A DNA stretch of 64,000 nt, from the NCBI RefSeq assembly GCF_000744815.1, contig NZ_JQMQ01000005.1, positions 2,178,055-2,242,054 of the forward strand, read 5' to 3'. The notes under the pieces were generated by a model that was given only the letters and a program-made list of their open reading frames with translations, was not told the origin of the DNA and did no database searches. Source of the DNA: Phaeacidiphilus oryzae TH49. Lineage in GTDB: Bacteria > Actinomycetota > Actinomycetes > Streptomycetales > Streptomycetaceae. Below, one piece after another: positions 32,147 to 64,000 of this stretch. Position numbers and translations under genes: made by a program. Position 1 is the first letter of the stretch, and every line of letters begins with the position of its first letter.

Positions 32147-32299
32147 GCGCCCCGAAGGGGCAGCGATCAAGGGGCGCGGGGAACCACGCGCCCAGCCACG
32201 CATCCTGCCGCGCCCTGCGACGTAGTACGGGGTTGCCACCCGATGCCCGACGCCGGGTGCGGTGCCGTAGCGGGCTGGTCGCGCAGTTCCCCGCGCCCC
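32147..32299 (-). repeat. dispersed palindromic element, full copy A
   Basis: GGGGCGCGGGGAAC (32171-32184) and GTTCCCCGCGCCCC (32286-32299) are perfect 14-bp inverted arms around 101 bases. Read on the minus strand, its first ~47 bases match those of the copy at 46318 at all but two positions. A short GCGCCCCGAAGGGGCAG at 32147-32163 is shared with 3334-3350. The element occupies the 305-base gap between the osaB and ftsK genes, which holds no coding frame I can support; it may act as terminator for osaB. Confidence 0.75.
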
Positions 32300-43629: not shown

Positions 43630-44742
43630 ATGCCCAGCAACCCACCGGTGCCCGCAGAGCGCCCCGGCAACATCTTCCACCCCGAGCGCCCGGACCGGCT
43701 GATGAGCGCGCTCACCCTCCTCAACGACGCGCTGGTCCCCCGGCTCACCCTGCCCGGGCTGCGGCGCAGCCGGCGGCTGCCGGACCCGCGCCCGGCCCCG
43801 CCGCTCCGGCTCGCGGTCCGTGAGCGGCGCCAGGTCGCCGAGGACGCGGTGGAGCTGACCCTGGCCCGGCCCGCGGGCGCCGGCGGGCCGCTGCCGTCCT
43901 GGCAGCCCGGCTGCCATCTGGACGTCACCCTGCCCTCCGGCCGGGTCCGGCAGTACTCGCTCTGCGGGGACCCCGACGACCGCGGCTGCTACCGGATCGC
44001 CGTCCGCCGCCTCGACGGCGGCCGCGGCGGCTCCCTGGAGGTCCACCAGGAGCTGGCGCCCGGGCGGGAGTTGACGGTCTCCGGGCCGCGCAACGCCTTC
44101 CCCTTCGCCGCCGAGCCGGCCGTCCTCCTGCTCGCCGGCGGGATCGGCATCACCCCCGTGCTGCCGATGGCCAGGGAGGCCGCCCGGCGCGGACTCGACT
44201 GGCGCCTGGTGCACACCGGCCGCTCCCGGGACAGCCTGCCGTTCCGCGCGGAACTGGAGGAGCTCTCGGGGGACTCCGGGCGGGTCCGCTTCCACACCTA
44301 CGACACCGACGGCTTCCCGGACGCCGCAGAACTGCTCGCGCAAGCCCCGCGCCCGGACGCCGCCGTCTACTGCTGCGGCCCCACCGAGCTGCTGGACGAC
44401 GTCCGGCTGGCGCTCCCCGGCACCCGGCTGCGCGCGCTCCACGCCGAGCGCTTCTCCCCCGCCCCGGTGGTCGGCGGGAAGCCGTTCCGGCTCCGCCTCG
44501 GCGACGGCACCGAGGTGGCGGTCCCCGCCGACCGGACCGCCCTGGACGCCCTGCTGGAGGCCCGCCCGCAGGCGCCGTTCTCCTGCCGCCAGGGCTTCTG
44601 CGGCACCTGCCGGGTCACCGTCCGGCAGGGCACCCCCGAGCACCGCGACCACCGCCTCACCGACCAGGAGCGGGCCGACGGATCCATGCTGATCTGCGTC
44701 TCCCGCGCCCCCGAGGGCCACACCCTGGAGATCGACGCATGA
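43630..44742 (+). CDS. PDR/VanB-type oxidoreductase with [2Fe-2S] domain
   Basis: A 370-residue flavin-iron-sulphur reductase. The flavin-binding motif is RQYSLCGDP, the NAD(P) domain has LLLAGGIGITPVLPM and YCCGPTELL, and the C-terminal ferredoxin domain has CRQGFCGTC plus a later Cys (ICVSRAP) as iron-sulphur ligands. Such enzymes pass electrons from NAD(P)H to an oxygenase; the di-iron protein just upstream (47 bases) is a natural partner by context. Its stop overlaps the next start (ATGA). Confidence 0.9.
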   Translation: MPSNPPVPAERPGNIFHPERPDRLMSALTLLNDALVPRLTLPGLRRSRRLPDPRPAPPLRLAVRERRQVAEDAVELTLARPAGAGGPLPSWQPGCHLDVTLPSGRVRQYSLCGDPDDRGCYRIAVRRLDGGRGGSLEVHQELAPGRELTVSGPRNAFPFAAEPAVLLLAGGIGITPVLPMAREAARRGLDWRLVHTGRSRDSLPFRAELEELSGDSGRVRFHTYDTDGFPDAAELLAQAPRPDAAVYCCGPTELLDDVRLALPGTRLRALHAERFSPAPVVGGKPFRLRLGDGTEVAVPADRTALDALLEARPQAPFSCRQGFCGTCRVTVRQGTPEHRDHRLTDQERADGSMLICVSRAPEGHTLEIDA

Positions 44743-45680
44743 CCGCGACCGCGCCCGCGAGCGCAACCGAGAGCGCCGCCCGCCCCCTCCCGCCCTTCCC
44801 GTGGACCGACCGCGACCTCGACCGCTTCCGCGAGGTCCAGCAGCTCGCCTACCGCTGCGCCGAGGGCGTGGCCGCCTGGATCGGACCGGGCGTGACGGAG
44901 CGTCAGACCGCCGCCGAGCTGCGCCGCCGGCTGATCGCCGAGGGCGTGCGGGACTTCTTCCACATCCCCTTCGCCTGGTTCGGCGAGCGCACCGCCTTCC
45001 GCCGGTTCCGCACCCCGCTGCAGTTCTTCCCCACCGACCGCAGGCTCTCCGAGGGCATGCCGTACGTGCTGGACTGCGCGCCGATCGTGGACGGCTACAC
45101 CGCGGACATCGGCTACGGCGGCCGGATCGGCGGCACCGGCGCCAACCCGGTCTGGGACAAGCTCACCGAGGACCTGGCCGGCTACCGCGAGCTGATCCTC
45201 GCCGAGGTCCGCGCCGGCCGGCCGCTGGCCGACGTCTACCGGGCCGTCGACGAGCGGATCATCCGGGACGGCTACGAGAACCGCCACCAGGTCTACCCGG
45301 GCCGGGTCATCGGCCACCAGGTCACCCGGCTGCACAGCCGGCTCCCCAGCGGGGTCAACCTCTTCGGCTTCGGCGTCCGCACCCTCCAGACCCTGGGGCG
45401 GGAACTGGTCGGCGAGCGGATCCAGGGCCGCTCCCCGCTGTGGGCCGACGGCCGCGCCTCCCGGCACCCCGCCACCCCCGGCCTGTGGGCGGTGGAGCCG
45501 CATATCGCCTTCCGCGACACCGGCACCAAGTTCGAGGAACTCCTCGTCGTCACCGGCGACCCGGCGAACCCGGCCTACTGGCTGGACGACGACCTGCCCC
45601 ACGTCCGCCGCTGGACGGCCGGCCCGAGCGGCCAGGCGGCGGCGACCAGCGCCGCCCCCGCCACCCCGTCCAGCCAGTAG
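44739..45680 (+). CDS. M24-family (Xaa-Pro aminopeptidase-like) protein
   Basis: A 313-residue creatinase/aminopeptidase-fold protein. All five metal ligands of the family can be placed: two Asp in VLDCAPIVDGYTADIGYG (ten residues apart), His in GRVIGHQV, and Glu in VEPHIAF and KFEELLVV. It lacks the N-terminal domain of full-length aminopeptidase P. Its start overlaps the reductase stop. Its last 106 bases overlap the 3' end of the PAP2 gene on the other strand; the tail coded there (SGQAAATSAAPATPSSQ) looks non-conserved. Confidence 0.85.
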   Translation: MTATAPASATESAARPLPPFPWTDRDLDRFREVQQLAYRCAEGVAAWIGPGVTERQTAAELRRRLIAEGVRDFFHIPFAWFGERTAFRRFRTPLQFFPTDRRLSEGMPYVLDCAPIVDGYTADIGYGGRIGGTGANPVWDKLTEDLAGYRELILAEVRAGRPLADVYRAVDERIIRDGYENRHQVYPGRVIGHQVTRLHSRLPSGVNLFGFGVRTLQTLGRELVGERIQGRSPLWADGRASRHPATPGLWAVEPHIAFRDTGTKFEELLVVTGDPANPAYWLDDDLPHVRRWTAGPSGQAAATSAAPATPSSQ

Positions 45681-46549
45681 TGGTTCGCCGTCACCACGAC
45701 CACCAGCACGGTCAGCGCCACATGCAGCAGCGCCAGCCATCGCCAGCGCGACCGCGAGACGGACAGCACGCAGGCGGCCACCAGCACACACCAGGCCACA
45801 TGCACCGAGGGCATGGCGGCCAGCCCGTCGGCGGTCACCCCGGCCGCGCCCGCCCCGGCGTAGACGGACTGGCCGTACGCCAGCCCGGTGTCCACCATCC
45901 CCGTCCCGCTCACCAGCCGGGGCGGGGCCACCGGTAGCAGCTGCACCAGCAGGGACGCCCCCGTGACGGTCACCAGCAGCGCGCGGACGCGCGGATACGC
46001 CGACCGATGCCGCAGGAACACCCAGAGGAGGAAACCGATCATCACCCCGAAGTGCATGACCGCGTAGTAGTAGTTGGCCCCCTGGATCAGCCAGTGCTGC
46101 GGCAGCAGCGCGCTCTGCAGCCACGCCTCGCTGGGCAGCCGCAGCGCCCGCTCGGCGCCCCAGATCGCCTGCCCGCGCGCGACCGCGTCGTCCCCCTGCC
46201 CCAGCGACCACTGCCCCGCGAACTCCCAGAGCGCGAAGAGCAGCAGCATCAGCCCGGCCTCCCGCAGCAGCGCCCCGAGCCCACGCGCCCCGGGCGCAGC
46301 GCCGCGGGCGCGAGCAAGGGGCGCGGGGAACTGCGCGACCGGCCCGCTACGGCGCCGCACCCGGGAACGGCCACCGGGTTGCAGCTCAGGCTCCGTGGCC
46401 GAGTACGGCAGGTCACGGGCTGAGCGCGCCGTTCCCCGCGCCCCCTGAGTTGCTGCGCAACTCACGCGCCGCGCAGCGGCAGAGCCCAGCACGAACGCGG
46501 CCGCCCCCGCGCCCGCAGCCACCTGCCAGGACAGCATCAGATTCCGCAT
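45575..46549 (-). CDS. PAP2/Aur1-like membrane phosphatase or transferase
   Basis: A ~324-residue polytopic membrane protein. MPSVHVAW and ANHYWLDGVAGAA are the second and third phosphatase motifs of the PAP2 superfamily, in the inositolphosphotransferase (Aur1-like) arrangement, with six hydrophobic helices between residue ~105 and the end. The N-terminal part has one helix (QVAAGAGAAAFVLGSAA), then ~60 residues translated straight through a dispersed palindromic element (46318-46444). The ATG at 46549 is taken; ATG 46249 (LMLLLFALWEF) would start after the element and give a normal-length enzyme. May act on lipid-linked polysaccharide intermediates, given the neighbouring locus. Confidence 0.75.
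   Translation of the reverse strand: MRNLMLSWQVAAGAGAAAFVLGSAAARRVSCAATQGARGTARSARDLPYSATEPELQPGGRSRVRRRSGPVAQFPAPLARARGAAPGARGLGALLREAGLMLLLFALWEFAGQWSLGQGDDAVARGQAIWGAERALRLPSEAWLQSALLPQHWLIQGANYYYAVMHFGVMIGFLLWVFLRHRSAYPRVRALLVTVTGASLLVQLLPVAPPRLVSGTGMVDTGLAYGQSVYAGAGAAGVTADGLAAMPSVHVAWCVLVAACVLSVSRSRWRWLALLHVALTVLVVVVTANHYWLDGVAGAALVAAAWPLGPAVQRRTWGRSSSSQ
46318..46444 (+). repeat. dispersed palindromic element, full copy B, inside the PAP2 frame
   Basis: GGGGCGCGGGGAAC (46318-46331) and GTTCCCCGCGCCCC (46431-46444) are perfect 14-bp arms around 99 bases, the same design as copy A at 32171-32299 but in reverse orientation. It has no stop codon in the PAP2 frame. Confidence 0.8.
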
Positions 46550-46591
46550 GCCGGCGGCACCCCCCACTCCACCGGCACACAGTAAGACCGC

Positions 46592-47878
46592 CTACCCCCC
46601 GATGACGACCCTCCGAACCCCCTCCCACCGCGTGGGGTCCGTCACCCGCCGCCCGTCCACCAGCACCTGAAGCCCGCTCAGATCCGCCGCCCCCAGCGTC
46701 CGGTACTCCGCGTGGTCCGCCTGCACGATCGCCGCGACCACCTCCCGCTCCCCGTCCCAGGCCGGAAGCCCCAGCTCCGCCAGCTCCTCCGCACCGTACA
46801 GCGGGTCACTGACATACGGCCGCGCCCCGCGCTCCCGCAGCGCATCCACCACGCCGAACACCCCGGAGAACGCGGTCTCCTTGACCCCGCCCCGGTAGGC
46901 CGCGCCCAGCACCAGCACGTCCACCCCGTCGAGCTCCCCGAAAGCGCCTTCCAGCAGCCCGACCGCGTACGCCGGCATCTCCCGGTTGGCGGTCCGCGCC
47001 GCCCGCACCACCGTCGCGTCCGGGTCGTTCCACAGGTACATCTGCGGGTAGATCGGGATGCAGTGCCCGCCGACCGCGATCCCGGGCTGGTGGATGTGGC
47101 TGAACGGCTGCGAGTTGCAGGCCTCGATCACCTTGAGGACGTCGACGCCCATCCGGTCCGCGTACCGCGCGAACTGGTTCGCAAGACCGATGTTGACATC
47201 CCGGTAGGTGGTCTCGGCGAGCTTCGCCAGCTCGGAGGCCTCCGCGGAGCCGAGGTTCCACACCCCGTTCTCCCGCGCCAGGTCGCCCCGCCGGTCGAAG
47301 TCGAGCACCGCCTCGTAGAACTCGACCCCGCGCCGGCCGGAGGCGGCGTCGATCCCGCCCACCAGCTTCGGGTAGCGGCGCAGGTCGGCGAAGACCCGCC
47401 CGGTGAAGACCCGCTCGGGGCTGAAGACCAGCGAGAAGTCGGTGCCGGCCCGCAGCCCGCTGCCCTCCTCCAGCATCGGCGCCCAGCGCTCCCGGGTGGT
47501 GCCGACCGGCAGCGTGGTCTCGTAGGAGACCAGCGTCCCCGGTCGCAGACCGGCCGCGATCTCCTTGGTGGCGGAGTCCATCCACCCGAAGTCGGGCACC
47601 CCGTCCTCGTCCACGAAGAGCGGCACGACCACCACGACGGCCTCCGACCTGGCCACCGCCTCCCGGGTGGCGGTGGTCGCGGTCAGCCGGCCGGCCAGGA
47701 CGTTCTCCTTGAGCCTGACGTCCAGGTCGGTCTCGCCGGGGAACGGCTCGACCCCCTCGTTCACCGCCCGCACGACCCGCTCGTCCACGTCCGCACCGAT
47801 CACCTGGTGCCCCTTGGACGCGAACTGCACGGCCAGCGGCAGGCCGATCTTCCCGAGCGCCACCACACAGATCCGCAT
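46592..47878 (-). CDS. wecC: UDP-N-acetylhexosamine 6-dehydrogenase (WecC/WbpA type)
   Basis: A 428-residue NAD-dependent enzyme that oxidises C6 of a UDP-HexNAc to the uronic acid. The Rossmann motif is VVALGKIGLPLAVQ (GxGxxG variant), and GGHCIPIYPQMYL carries the catalytic Cys; SYETTLPVGTT and LAETTYRDVNIGLANQ are family signatures. It may use UDP-ManNAc (WecC) or UDP-GlcNAc (WbpA); the downstream-acting enzymes in the cluster favour the second. ATG 47878 with GGAGG upstream; last gene of the locus. Confidence 0.88.
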   Translation of the reverse strand: MRICVVALGKIGLPLAVQFASKGHQVIGADVDERVVRAVNEGVEPFPGETDLDVRLKENVLAGRLTATTATREAVARSEAVVVVVPLFVDEDGVPDFGWMDSATKEIAAGLRPGTLVSYETTLPVGTTRERWAPMLEEGSGLRAGTDFSLVFSPERVFTGRVFADLRRYPKLVGGIDAASGRRGVEFYEAVLDFDRRGDLARENGVWNLGSAEASELAKLAETTYRDVNIGLANQFARYADRMGVDVLKVIEACNSQPFSHIHQPGIAVGGHCIPIYPQMYLWNDPDATVVRAARTANREMPAYAVGLLEGAFGELDGVDVLVLGAAYRGGVKETAFSGVFGVVDALRERGARPYVSDPLYGAEELAELGLPAWDGEREVVAAIVQADHAEYRTLGAADLSGLQVLVDGRRVTDPTRWEGVRRVVIGG

Positions 47879-47895
47879 GTTGCCCTGTTCCTCCG

Positions 47896-48975
47896 TCACA
47901 TCTCTTCTGTCAGCGCGGCGGCCGCACGCGCTGCCGCCCGCCCGTCCCCGTACGGCTCGCCGCGCGAGCCCTCCGGGGCCGGGCGCAGGGCGATCTCCGA
48001 CCACTCGGCCGCGCTGAGCCGGTGCGGATCGGCGACCAGCCGGTTCCAGCCGCCGGCCATGGTCTCCGGCCACTCGGTCTCGGTGCGGAGCGTCGTGCAG
48101 ACCCGGCCCAGCAGATAGGCCTCCTTCTGCAGCCCGCCCGAGTCGGTGACGACCCCGGCCGAGCCGAGCACCGCGCCCACCATCGCCGCGTACGGCAGCG
48201 GGCGGCCGACGCGGATGGCGCCCTGCTGGAGCTTCAGCCCCTGCCGCTCGGCCCGGTCCACCAGCCGCGGGTGCGCCATCAGCGCCACCGGGTACGGCAG
48301 TGCCGCCAGCGCGCCGATCAGCGCGGCCAGCCGCTCGGGGTCGTCGGTGTTCTCCGCCCGGTGGAGGGTGGCCAGCAGGTAGGTCTCGCGCGGGTTGACG
48401 TCCTCCGGCAGGCCCCGCACCTGCGCCCCGGCGACCTGGTCGCGGACCCGCAGGCAGACGTCCACCATCACGTCGCCGACCAGCCGGGTCCGCTCGGCGA
48501 GGCCCTCGGCGGCGAGGTGCCGGACGGCCTCCTCGGTGGGGGCCAGCAGCAGGTCGGCGCAGTGGTCGGTGAGCACCCGGTTGTGCTCCTCGGGCATCCG
48601 CCGGTTGAAGGACCGCAGCCCGGCCTCCAGATGGGCCACCGGCAGGCCCAGCTTCACCGCCGCGAGGGCGCCGGCCAGCGTGGAGTTGGTGTCGCCGTAG
48701 ACCAGCACCCGGTCCGGCCGGGTGTGTTCGAGCACCGGGTCGAGGCCGGCCAGCACCGCTCCGGTCTGCGCCCCGTGGCTGCCGGATCCGGCGCCGAGGT
48801 GGACGTCGGGCTCGGGGATGCCGAGGCCGTCGAAGAAGACGTCGGACAGGTCGGCGTCGTAGTGCTGCCCGGTGTGCACGATCAGGTGCTCGTGCCCGGC
48901 CGCGGTCAGCGCCTCCGCCATCGGTGCCAGCTTGACCAGCTGCGGCCGGGCCCCGACCACGCTCATCACCTTCAC
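47896..48975 (-). CDS. wecB: UDP-N-acetylglucosamine 2-epimerase family (WecB/WbpI type)
   Basis: A 359-residue non-hydrolysing epimerase. SVVGARPQLVKLAPM, HTGQHYDADLSDVFF, VYGDTNSTLAG, AHLEAGLRSFNRRMPEEHNR and TDSGGLQKEAYLLG are the family motifs. It inverts C2 of UDP-GlcNAc or of a diacetamido-uronate. The GTG at 48975 overlaps the preceding stop as GTGA; an ATG at 48966 is also possible. Confidence 0.9.
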   Translation of the reverse strand: MKVMSVVGARPQLVKLAPMAEALTAAGHEHLIVHTGQHYDADLSDVFFDGLGIPEPDVHLGAGSGSHGAQTGAVLAGLDPVLEHTRPDRVLVYGDTNSTLAGALAAVKLGLPVAHLEAGLRSFNRRMPEEHNRVLTDHCADLLLAPTEEAVRHLAAEGLAERTRLVGDVMVDVCLRVRDQVAGAQVRGLPEDVNPRETYLLATLHRAENTDDPERLAALIGALAALPYPVALMAHPRLVDRAERQGLKLQQGAIRVGRPLPYAAMVGAVLGSAGVVTDSGGLQKEAYLLGRVCTTLRTETEWPETMAGGWNRLVADPHRLSAAEWSEIALRPAPEGSRGEPYGDGRAAARAAAALTEEM

Positions 48976-60950: not shown

Positions 60951-61069
60951 GTTCGGCGGCGTCCTACTCTCCCACACCCTCCCGAGTGCAGTACCATCGG
61001 CGCTGGCCAGCTTAGCTTCCGGGTTCGGAATGTAACCGGGCGTACCCTGACCGCCATGACCACCGAAAC
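60951..61069 (-). rRNA. rrf: 5S ribosomal RNA
   Basis: About 119 nt. The 5' end GTTTCGGTGGTCATGGCGG and the 3' end GACGCCGCCGAAC pair as the terminal helix. The middle (CCGAACCCGGAAGCTAAG) is the conserved loop region. Lies 3' of the 23S gene. Confidence 0.95.
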
Positions 61070-61074
61070 ACTAT

Positions 61075-61106
61075 GAAGAAATCTGCCTGTGGCAGGCTGT
61101 TTCTTC
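61075..61106 (-). other. processing stem in the 23S-5S spacer
   Basis: GAAGAAA (61075-61081) pairs with TTTCTTC (61100-61106), and GCCTG (61085-61089) with CAGGC (61093-61097). A spacer hairpin of this kind is a probable RNase processing site between 23S and 5S RNA. Confidence 0.6.
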
Positions 61107-61134
61107 AGAACAACACAGTGGACGCGGAGCAACT

Positions 61135-64000
<2,866 letters not shown>

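Follow-up and report, generated by a model that had tools for sequence, protein, structure and literature searches.

Introduction

Palindromic repeats that are translated as part of a protein are already in print for Rickettsia and for the REPs of some other bacteria. In PMC10969869, Rickettsia palindromic elements (RPEs) are described as palindromic sequences of about 150 bp that occur in the frames of unrelated genes, with 44 such instances in R. conorii, and RPEs in frame within genes also feature in PMC3733652. The latter source (Di Nocera 2013, PMC3733652) also covers REPs, including the intragenic GTAG/CGTC repeats: these 20-40 bp sequences are placed between convergent and unidirectional genes, near 3' ends, are sometimes wholly intragenic, and can form clusters that encode 43 to 82 residues. 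RAYT transposases are discussed there as well.

For Streptomyces avermitilis, RNA 3' ends have been reported to carry a GC-rich palindrome upstream, usually with no U tract (PMC8780764). As presented in the available part of that paper, these palindromes are a general 3'-end feature, not a dispersed repeat with fixed ends or intragenic copies. The main text of Di Nocera 2013 (PMC3733652) contains neither "Streptomyces" nor "Actino", and that of the RepRanger paper (PMC12306157) does not mention Streptomyces. No account of the element family described below was found among the titles and abstract openings listed by searches of the openly licensed PMC literature, where six exact pieces of its sequence also had no match.

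Here we describe a repeat that normally sits behind genes, where it apparently serves as a terminator or RNA end, and that has become part of the open coding frame of a PAP2_3-family gene. Two further genes of this genome are likely cases as well. Because RPEs and intragenic REPs are in print, the phenomenon is known in kind; the lineage and the repeat differ here. A repeat in a coding frame also allows the passage from non-coding repeat to protein sequence to be tested in culturable relatives. Our preferred reading, to which we give a probability of roughly 80%, is that a composite hairpin repeat inserted in this lineage into the linker of the PAP2_3 gene, kept the frame, and is most likely translated.

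As with RPEs, the sequence points to a palindromic element in frame in a protein gene and absent from its orthologues. Unlike RPEs, only 1 of 88 full-length copies lies in a called gene, and the host is a high-GC actinomycete. The initial annotation had likened the element to RPEs, and as an analogy this holds: the element may work as they do. It resembles REPs in sitting near 3' ends, between convergent or tandem genes, and once inside a gene, but differs in that the palindrome is 127 bp, the unit is about 180 bp, and the genome has no Y1_Tnp match at E<=0.001.

Table 1. Coordinates of the PAP2 locus, the element copies, and two further candidate genes (window positions unless a contig or stretch is given)
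Feature	Position	Strand	Remarks
PAP2_3-family membrane enzyme gene with insert	45575..46549	-	start ATG 46547-46549, stop 45575-45577; 324 aa
Conserved N-terminal segment MRNLMLSWQ...AARR (first helix)	46466..46549	-	matches relatives' (M/V/L)xNLTLSWQ...R
PAP2 core, downstream of insert	45578..46249	-	E<=1e-30 match in 166/200 family genomes (own included)
Palindromic element	46318..46444	.	127 bp; exact 14-bp inverted ends 46318-46331 / 46431-46444
Composite unit (hairpin + 127-bp palindrome + hairpin)	46282..46470	.	approximate; edges inferred
Bracketing hairpin	46446..46464	.	TGAGTTGC pairs with GCAACTCA; GCA loop on minus strand
Other-side bracketing hairpin	46285..46311	.	inner stem GCGCC-GCG-GGCGC 46299-46311
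Intergenic copy	32171..32299	.	exact 14-bp inverted ends; only other full copy in window
Nucleotide-sugar dehydrogenase gene	46592..47899	-	Pfam UDPG_MGDP_dh; directly upstream of PAP2 gene
PcaB-like gene	C5 ~1.278 Mb, L287:5039-6781	-	apparently element-derived 43-residue tandem units in loop
NuoC-like gene	C5 ~4.175 Mb, L297:2712-3854	+	three element arms in frame in C-terminal tail

Element copies in the window and the composite unit

The window, i.e., the whole 64,000-nucleotide stretch analysed, corresponds to positions 2178055-2242054 of contig C5 in a 7.8-Mb genome. The initial annotation had described a 127-bp element with perfect 14-bp inverted ends that shares its design with an intergenic copy (Table 1), and both descriptions were accurate: the ends are exact in each, and 45 of the first 47 bases are equal when the intergenic copy is reversed (33/47 in the same orientation). 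That copy follows a minus-strand gene, 33 bp behind its 3' end, and is accompanied by a hairpin, GCCCC-GAA-GGGGC, at 32149-32161. When the 14-mer was searched in the window alone with up to 2 mismatches, 10 matches were found against 5.96 expected, which is hardly above chance; exact matches number four, and these are the two ends of each copy. Covariance model R1 scores the PAP2 copy, which is among the 44 used to build it, at 108.6 bits on the plus strand and 101.6 bits on the minus strand. An Rfam gathering search of the window returned rRNA only, and the 5S and 23S rRNA genes lie at the window's end (60951-64000, minus strand).

The palindrome is not the whole unit. Across 90 flanks, weak conservation extends to about 31 bases beyond each element end, and in 48 of them the best hairpin has a GNA loop and a stem of at least 5 pairs, with stem sequences that differ. 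Such hairpins were found in 19/1800 shuffled sequences, 56/2904 random genome stretches, and 1/229 element-free gene 3' flanks. With roughly every second flank carrying a GNA-capped hairpin, the unit comes closer to 180 bp, so the extent of 127 bp given in the initial annotation is right for the palindrome and too short for the unit, which includes the bracketing hairpins. In the PAP2 copy, one of the two hairpins is of the GNA type, their loops being GCA and GCG. The PAP2 unit has a three-domain centroid fold as RNA (z -3.59), and as DNA its z is -4.88.

A dispersed repeat family

The element end GGGGCGCGGGGAACNNCGCG has 322 matches in the 7.8-Mb genome (156 forward, 166 reverse) and its reversed control has none, so the ends are not there by chance. 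A genome search for paired ends about 100 bases apart, as the initial annotation had proposed, recovered 80 copies with exact ends and 88-112 bases between them. Element length is 126-130 bp in 43 of 45 copies and 118 and 135 bp in the other two. A consensus fold of 44 copies has the outer 20 bases paired, with double-sided changes in 3/25 pairs; the constancy of the 14-bp ends in that fold follows from how the copies were selected.

The family is not confined to this genome. The exact 20-mer GGGGCGCGGGGAACTGCGCG is present in 116 of 200 sampled genomes of the taxonomic family (own included), spread over 9/17 genera, with 1 to 471 matches per positive genome. When the shorter pairing of ends was taken in 20 stretches from relatives, 17 gave elements of 125-129 bp, with identical ends and different interiors, and three gave no pairing. 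A plasmid BLAST search gave partial matches in 7 Streptomyces plasmids, with no annotated feature beneath them among the matches listed. In our own genome the elements seem to change strand near 2.2 Mb, but this looks like a listing artefact, since the listing covers 50 places per strand and its minus-strand entries stop there.

The family is dispersed and high in copy number, it has terminal inverted repeats as MITEs do, and the site in PAP2 relatives is empty, all of which would suit spread by a transposase, as a RAYT-type REP or as a MITE, with the PAP2 copy an ordinary recent transposition. However, Y1_Tnp (PF01797, RAYT-type), the sole transposase family searched, had 0 matches in the genome at E<=0.001 while 5 of 14 control genomes were positive, and a RAYT origin of the family is thus unsupported. 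Nor was there an excess of target duplications over the 88 full-length copies, whose edges are only roughly known: the longest word shared by the two flanks averaged 6.45 for a copy's own flanks vs 6.36 for mismatched flanks, and shared words of at least 8 bp numbered 16 vs 13.3 expected. We regard movement by a transposase as unlikely. At the PAP2 locus itself, the direct repeat CACGCGCC (46282 and 46463) might be read as a target duplication. We rejected this because its two occurrences are 181 bases apart, a number not divisible by three, and because target duplications are not in excess in the family.

Placement relative to genes

We took a census of element placement in 73 stretches, i.e., 72 picked for holding a full copy plus the window, which together contain 88 non-overlapping copies. 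Genes came from a home-made caller run with the element masked and the overlap limit relaxed. Fifty-two copies lie between convergent genes, 33 between tandem genes, and 2 between divergent genes, and the PAP2 copy alone (1/88) is inside a called gene. By comparison, among element-free gaps of at least 60 bp, 18 were between convergent genes, 166 between tandem genes, and 71 between divergent genes. Adjacent 3' ends lie at a median distance of 43 bp from a copy (n=137), and adjacent 5' ends at a median of 180 bp (n=37). Another copy, in stretch L077, seemed to lie inside the end of a weak gene and was rejected: it has no two-sided coding signal and is outside genes when these are called with the element masked.

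The placement of the element is terminator-like. Extragenic positions near 3' ends, as in REPs, account for the 85/88 copies between convergent or tandem genes, and a stable hairpin stands behind stop codons, as in intrinsic terminators, with single-copy folding covering the PAP2 copy only. The intergenic copies most likely act as a two-way transcription terminator or a 3'-end RNA stabiliser, and would thus end or protect transcripts arriving from both sides. In four other genomes, 22 element pairings (some of which reuse arms) comprised 12 tandem, 5 convergent, and 5 divergent, with 0 inside genes; the 3' bias is less clean there (17/22) because 5 of the 22 are divergent.

The PAP2_3 gene

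The minus-strand frame 45575-46567 has no stop and, as had been claimed, is open across the element. Pfam PAP2_3 matches residues 134-313 of 330 with E 4.6e-42 and 144.4 bits (cut-off 27). The PSVH and NH.W.D columns, which we take to be the catalytic motifs of PAP2_3, are invariant among 40 aligned sequences. The caller predicted a single gene, 45575-46549, across the masked element; an earlier caller missed the gene, probably owing to the 106-bp overlap with a convergent gene. The coding signal upstream of the insert is weak: it was 3.0 and 2.6 in two scans and below the threshold of 2 in two others.

The overlapping convergent gene encodes an M24 peptidase (44739-45680, overlap 45575-45680). 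At its two ends, the overlap carries a perfect 14-bp inverted repeat (45575-45588 / 45667-45680), with the SSQ-stop of each gene opposite the YWLD codons of the other. The last PAP2 residues are not conserved. On the other side, a nucleotide-sugar dehydrogenase gene precedes the PAP2 gene. Among 109 relative loci, many with short flanks, the same arrangement recurs in five, which look like two species, each in two collections.

In an AlphaFold model of the PAP2 protein (mean pLDDT 74.1), helices 8-45 and 86-117 flank a low-confidence stretch. Averaged in blocks of ten, pLDDT drops to 47-67 over residues 41-90, and residues 62-64 and 69-81 are below 50. Because the first helix extends to residue 45, the model does not show the beginning of the insert as disordered. 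A second low-confidence stretch, 209-244, is within the core. Foldseek against the PDB gave weak matches only, the best being LpxE (E 0.56).

Comparison with PAP2 relatives

We assembled 109 relative loci from two sources (29 + 80), of which 66 carry the N-terminal motif and were compared in length; the 43 others are more distant, lack the motif, and were left out of that comparison. The 66 are not all independent, since the two sources overlap in species, and our own genus is represented by one genome. The closest named relatives are in Streptacidiphilus, Kitasatospora, and Peterkaempfera, which suggests that the host belongs to the Streptomycetaceae. Mean identity to 39 aligned relatives is 0.49 for the N-terminus and 0.58 for the core, so the N-terminus has not decayed.

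The distance from motif to core is 98 residues here vs 40-78 in the 66 relatives (mode 40; Streptacidiphilus group 45). Every motif-bearing relative is thus shorter, and the orthologue alignment that the initial annotation had suggested as a check comes out in favour of an insertion. Against the Streptacidiphilus group the motif-to-core stretch has 53 extra residues, and against the mode it has 58 (a range of 159-174 nt), so the original estimate of about 43 added residues was too low. Judged by length, the composite unit accounts for this excess better than the palindrome of 127 bp would by itself.

The relatives also indicate where the gene most probably starts. In 66/66 the start codon is exactly at the equivalent of ATG 46549 (31 ATG, 19 GTG, 16 TTG), in agreement with the gene caller, and the GTG at 46567 is most likely not the start. 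The initial annotation had offered an alternative in which the element split the gene: the functional enzyme would begin at ATG 46249, and the old N-terminus plus the element would be an untranslated or wasted leader. This has some appeal, as GGGAGG lies 8 bases upstream of that ATG, the Pfam PAP2_3 match begins after it, and the strong mRNA hairpin formed by the unit could hinder ribosomes. However, the uniform start of the motif-bearing relatives means that ATG 46249 is not the family start, many relatives have V or L at its position, and the N-terminal helix is conserved and still in frame. We consider a split gene quite improbable. The proposal of an in-frame insertion between the first helix and the core, by contrast, gains support from these conserved starts and from the relatives' shorter linkers.

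Could the stretch instead be a variable linker that drifted into resembling the repeat, with no insertion at all? Linker length does vary among relatives, and in two of them, L047 and L125 (Streptacidiphilus sp. ASG 303), the linker is expanded by an unrelated KDRPATDRSA-like tandem repeat to a motif-to-core distance of 78 residues. Drift would nevertheless have to produce exact 14-bp inverted ends, a high score with the family model, and bracketing hairpins, all matching a family whose ends number in the hundreds in this genome, and none of the 109 relative loci gave a convincing match to the element model (best E 0.63). We give this explanation next to no weight. One relative, L049, has a single exact element arm outside its PAP2 gene, 19 bases past the stop codon, which is the usual place for the family.

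Given the length difference, the conserved start, and no element in relatives, the insert is most simply derived in our own lineage. We propose that the composite repeat inserted between the first transmembrane helix and the PAP2_3 core. Because the net insertion is in frame and without a stop, the ribosome most likely reads through it, and the product would contain an arginine-rich linker, mostly disordered and about 53-60 residues long. An in-gene copy may be tolerated when it is in frame and in a linker because the ribosome would keep the hairpin open inside a translated gene. Retention of the frame should be roughly a one-in-three event, and the palindrome's frames are mostly open anyway: 221 of 270 frame-by-copy combinations (45 copies) are open vs a fraction of 0.667 in shuffles.

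Further in-frame cases

A scan for open frames with coding signal on both sides covered 112 element clusters (248 arms) from 94 stretches, one of them the window. There were three matches: a PcaB-like gene, a NuoC-like gene, and an arm in stretch L223. The last, a lone arm matched with up to one mismatch, lies in an ordinary gene and was not counted as a case. The scan undercounts, as the PAP2 gene itself falls below its threshold. The PcaB-like and NuoC-like genes are likely two more in-frame cases, as far as their sequences indicate.

The PcaB-like protein matches TIGR02426 with 375.5 bits (cut-off 355.75). A nitrosuccinate-lyase model scores higher, 528.3, but under its own cut-off of 650, and the best PDB match is CreD. 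The loop after GTLAAF is 117 residues long vs -2 to 39 in 29 relatives, these being the best-scoring loci from a search that matched 41/61 genomes (own included). It contains two complete arms 129 bp apart and in the same phase.

In the NuoC-like protein, Complex1_30kDa occupies residues 31-155 of 380, and the best PDB matches stop by about 165. The arms in the tail are spaced by 99 and 135 bp, and the start of nuoH overlaps the stop codon of this gene.

Together with PAP2, these genes suggest, tentatively and at somewhat less than even odds, that in Streptomycetaceae a terminator-like hairpin repeat may be a recurrent source of new protein sequence, translated as disordered loops or tails, and an independent counterpart of RPEs. 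The same tentative reading would cover both whole units (PAP2) and part-units amplified in three-base steps (129 bp in the PcaB-like gene, 99 and 135 bp in the NuoC-like gene). Tandem arrays other than the NuoC-like one had no coding signal on both sides in the open-frame scan. The tandem same-orientation part-element arrays in stretches L288-L301 have spacings of 83 to 135 bp.
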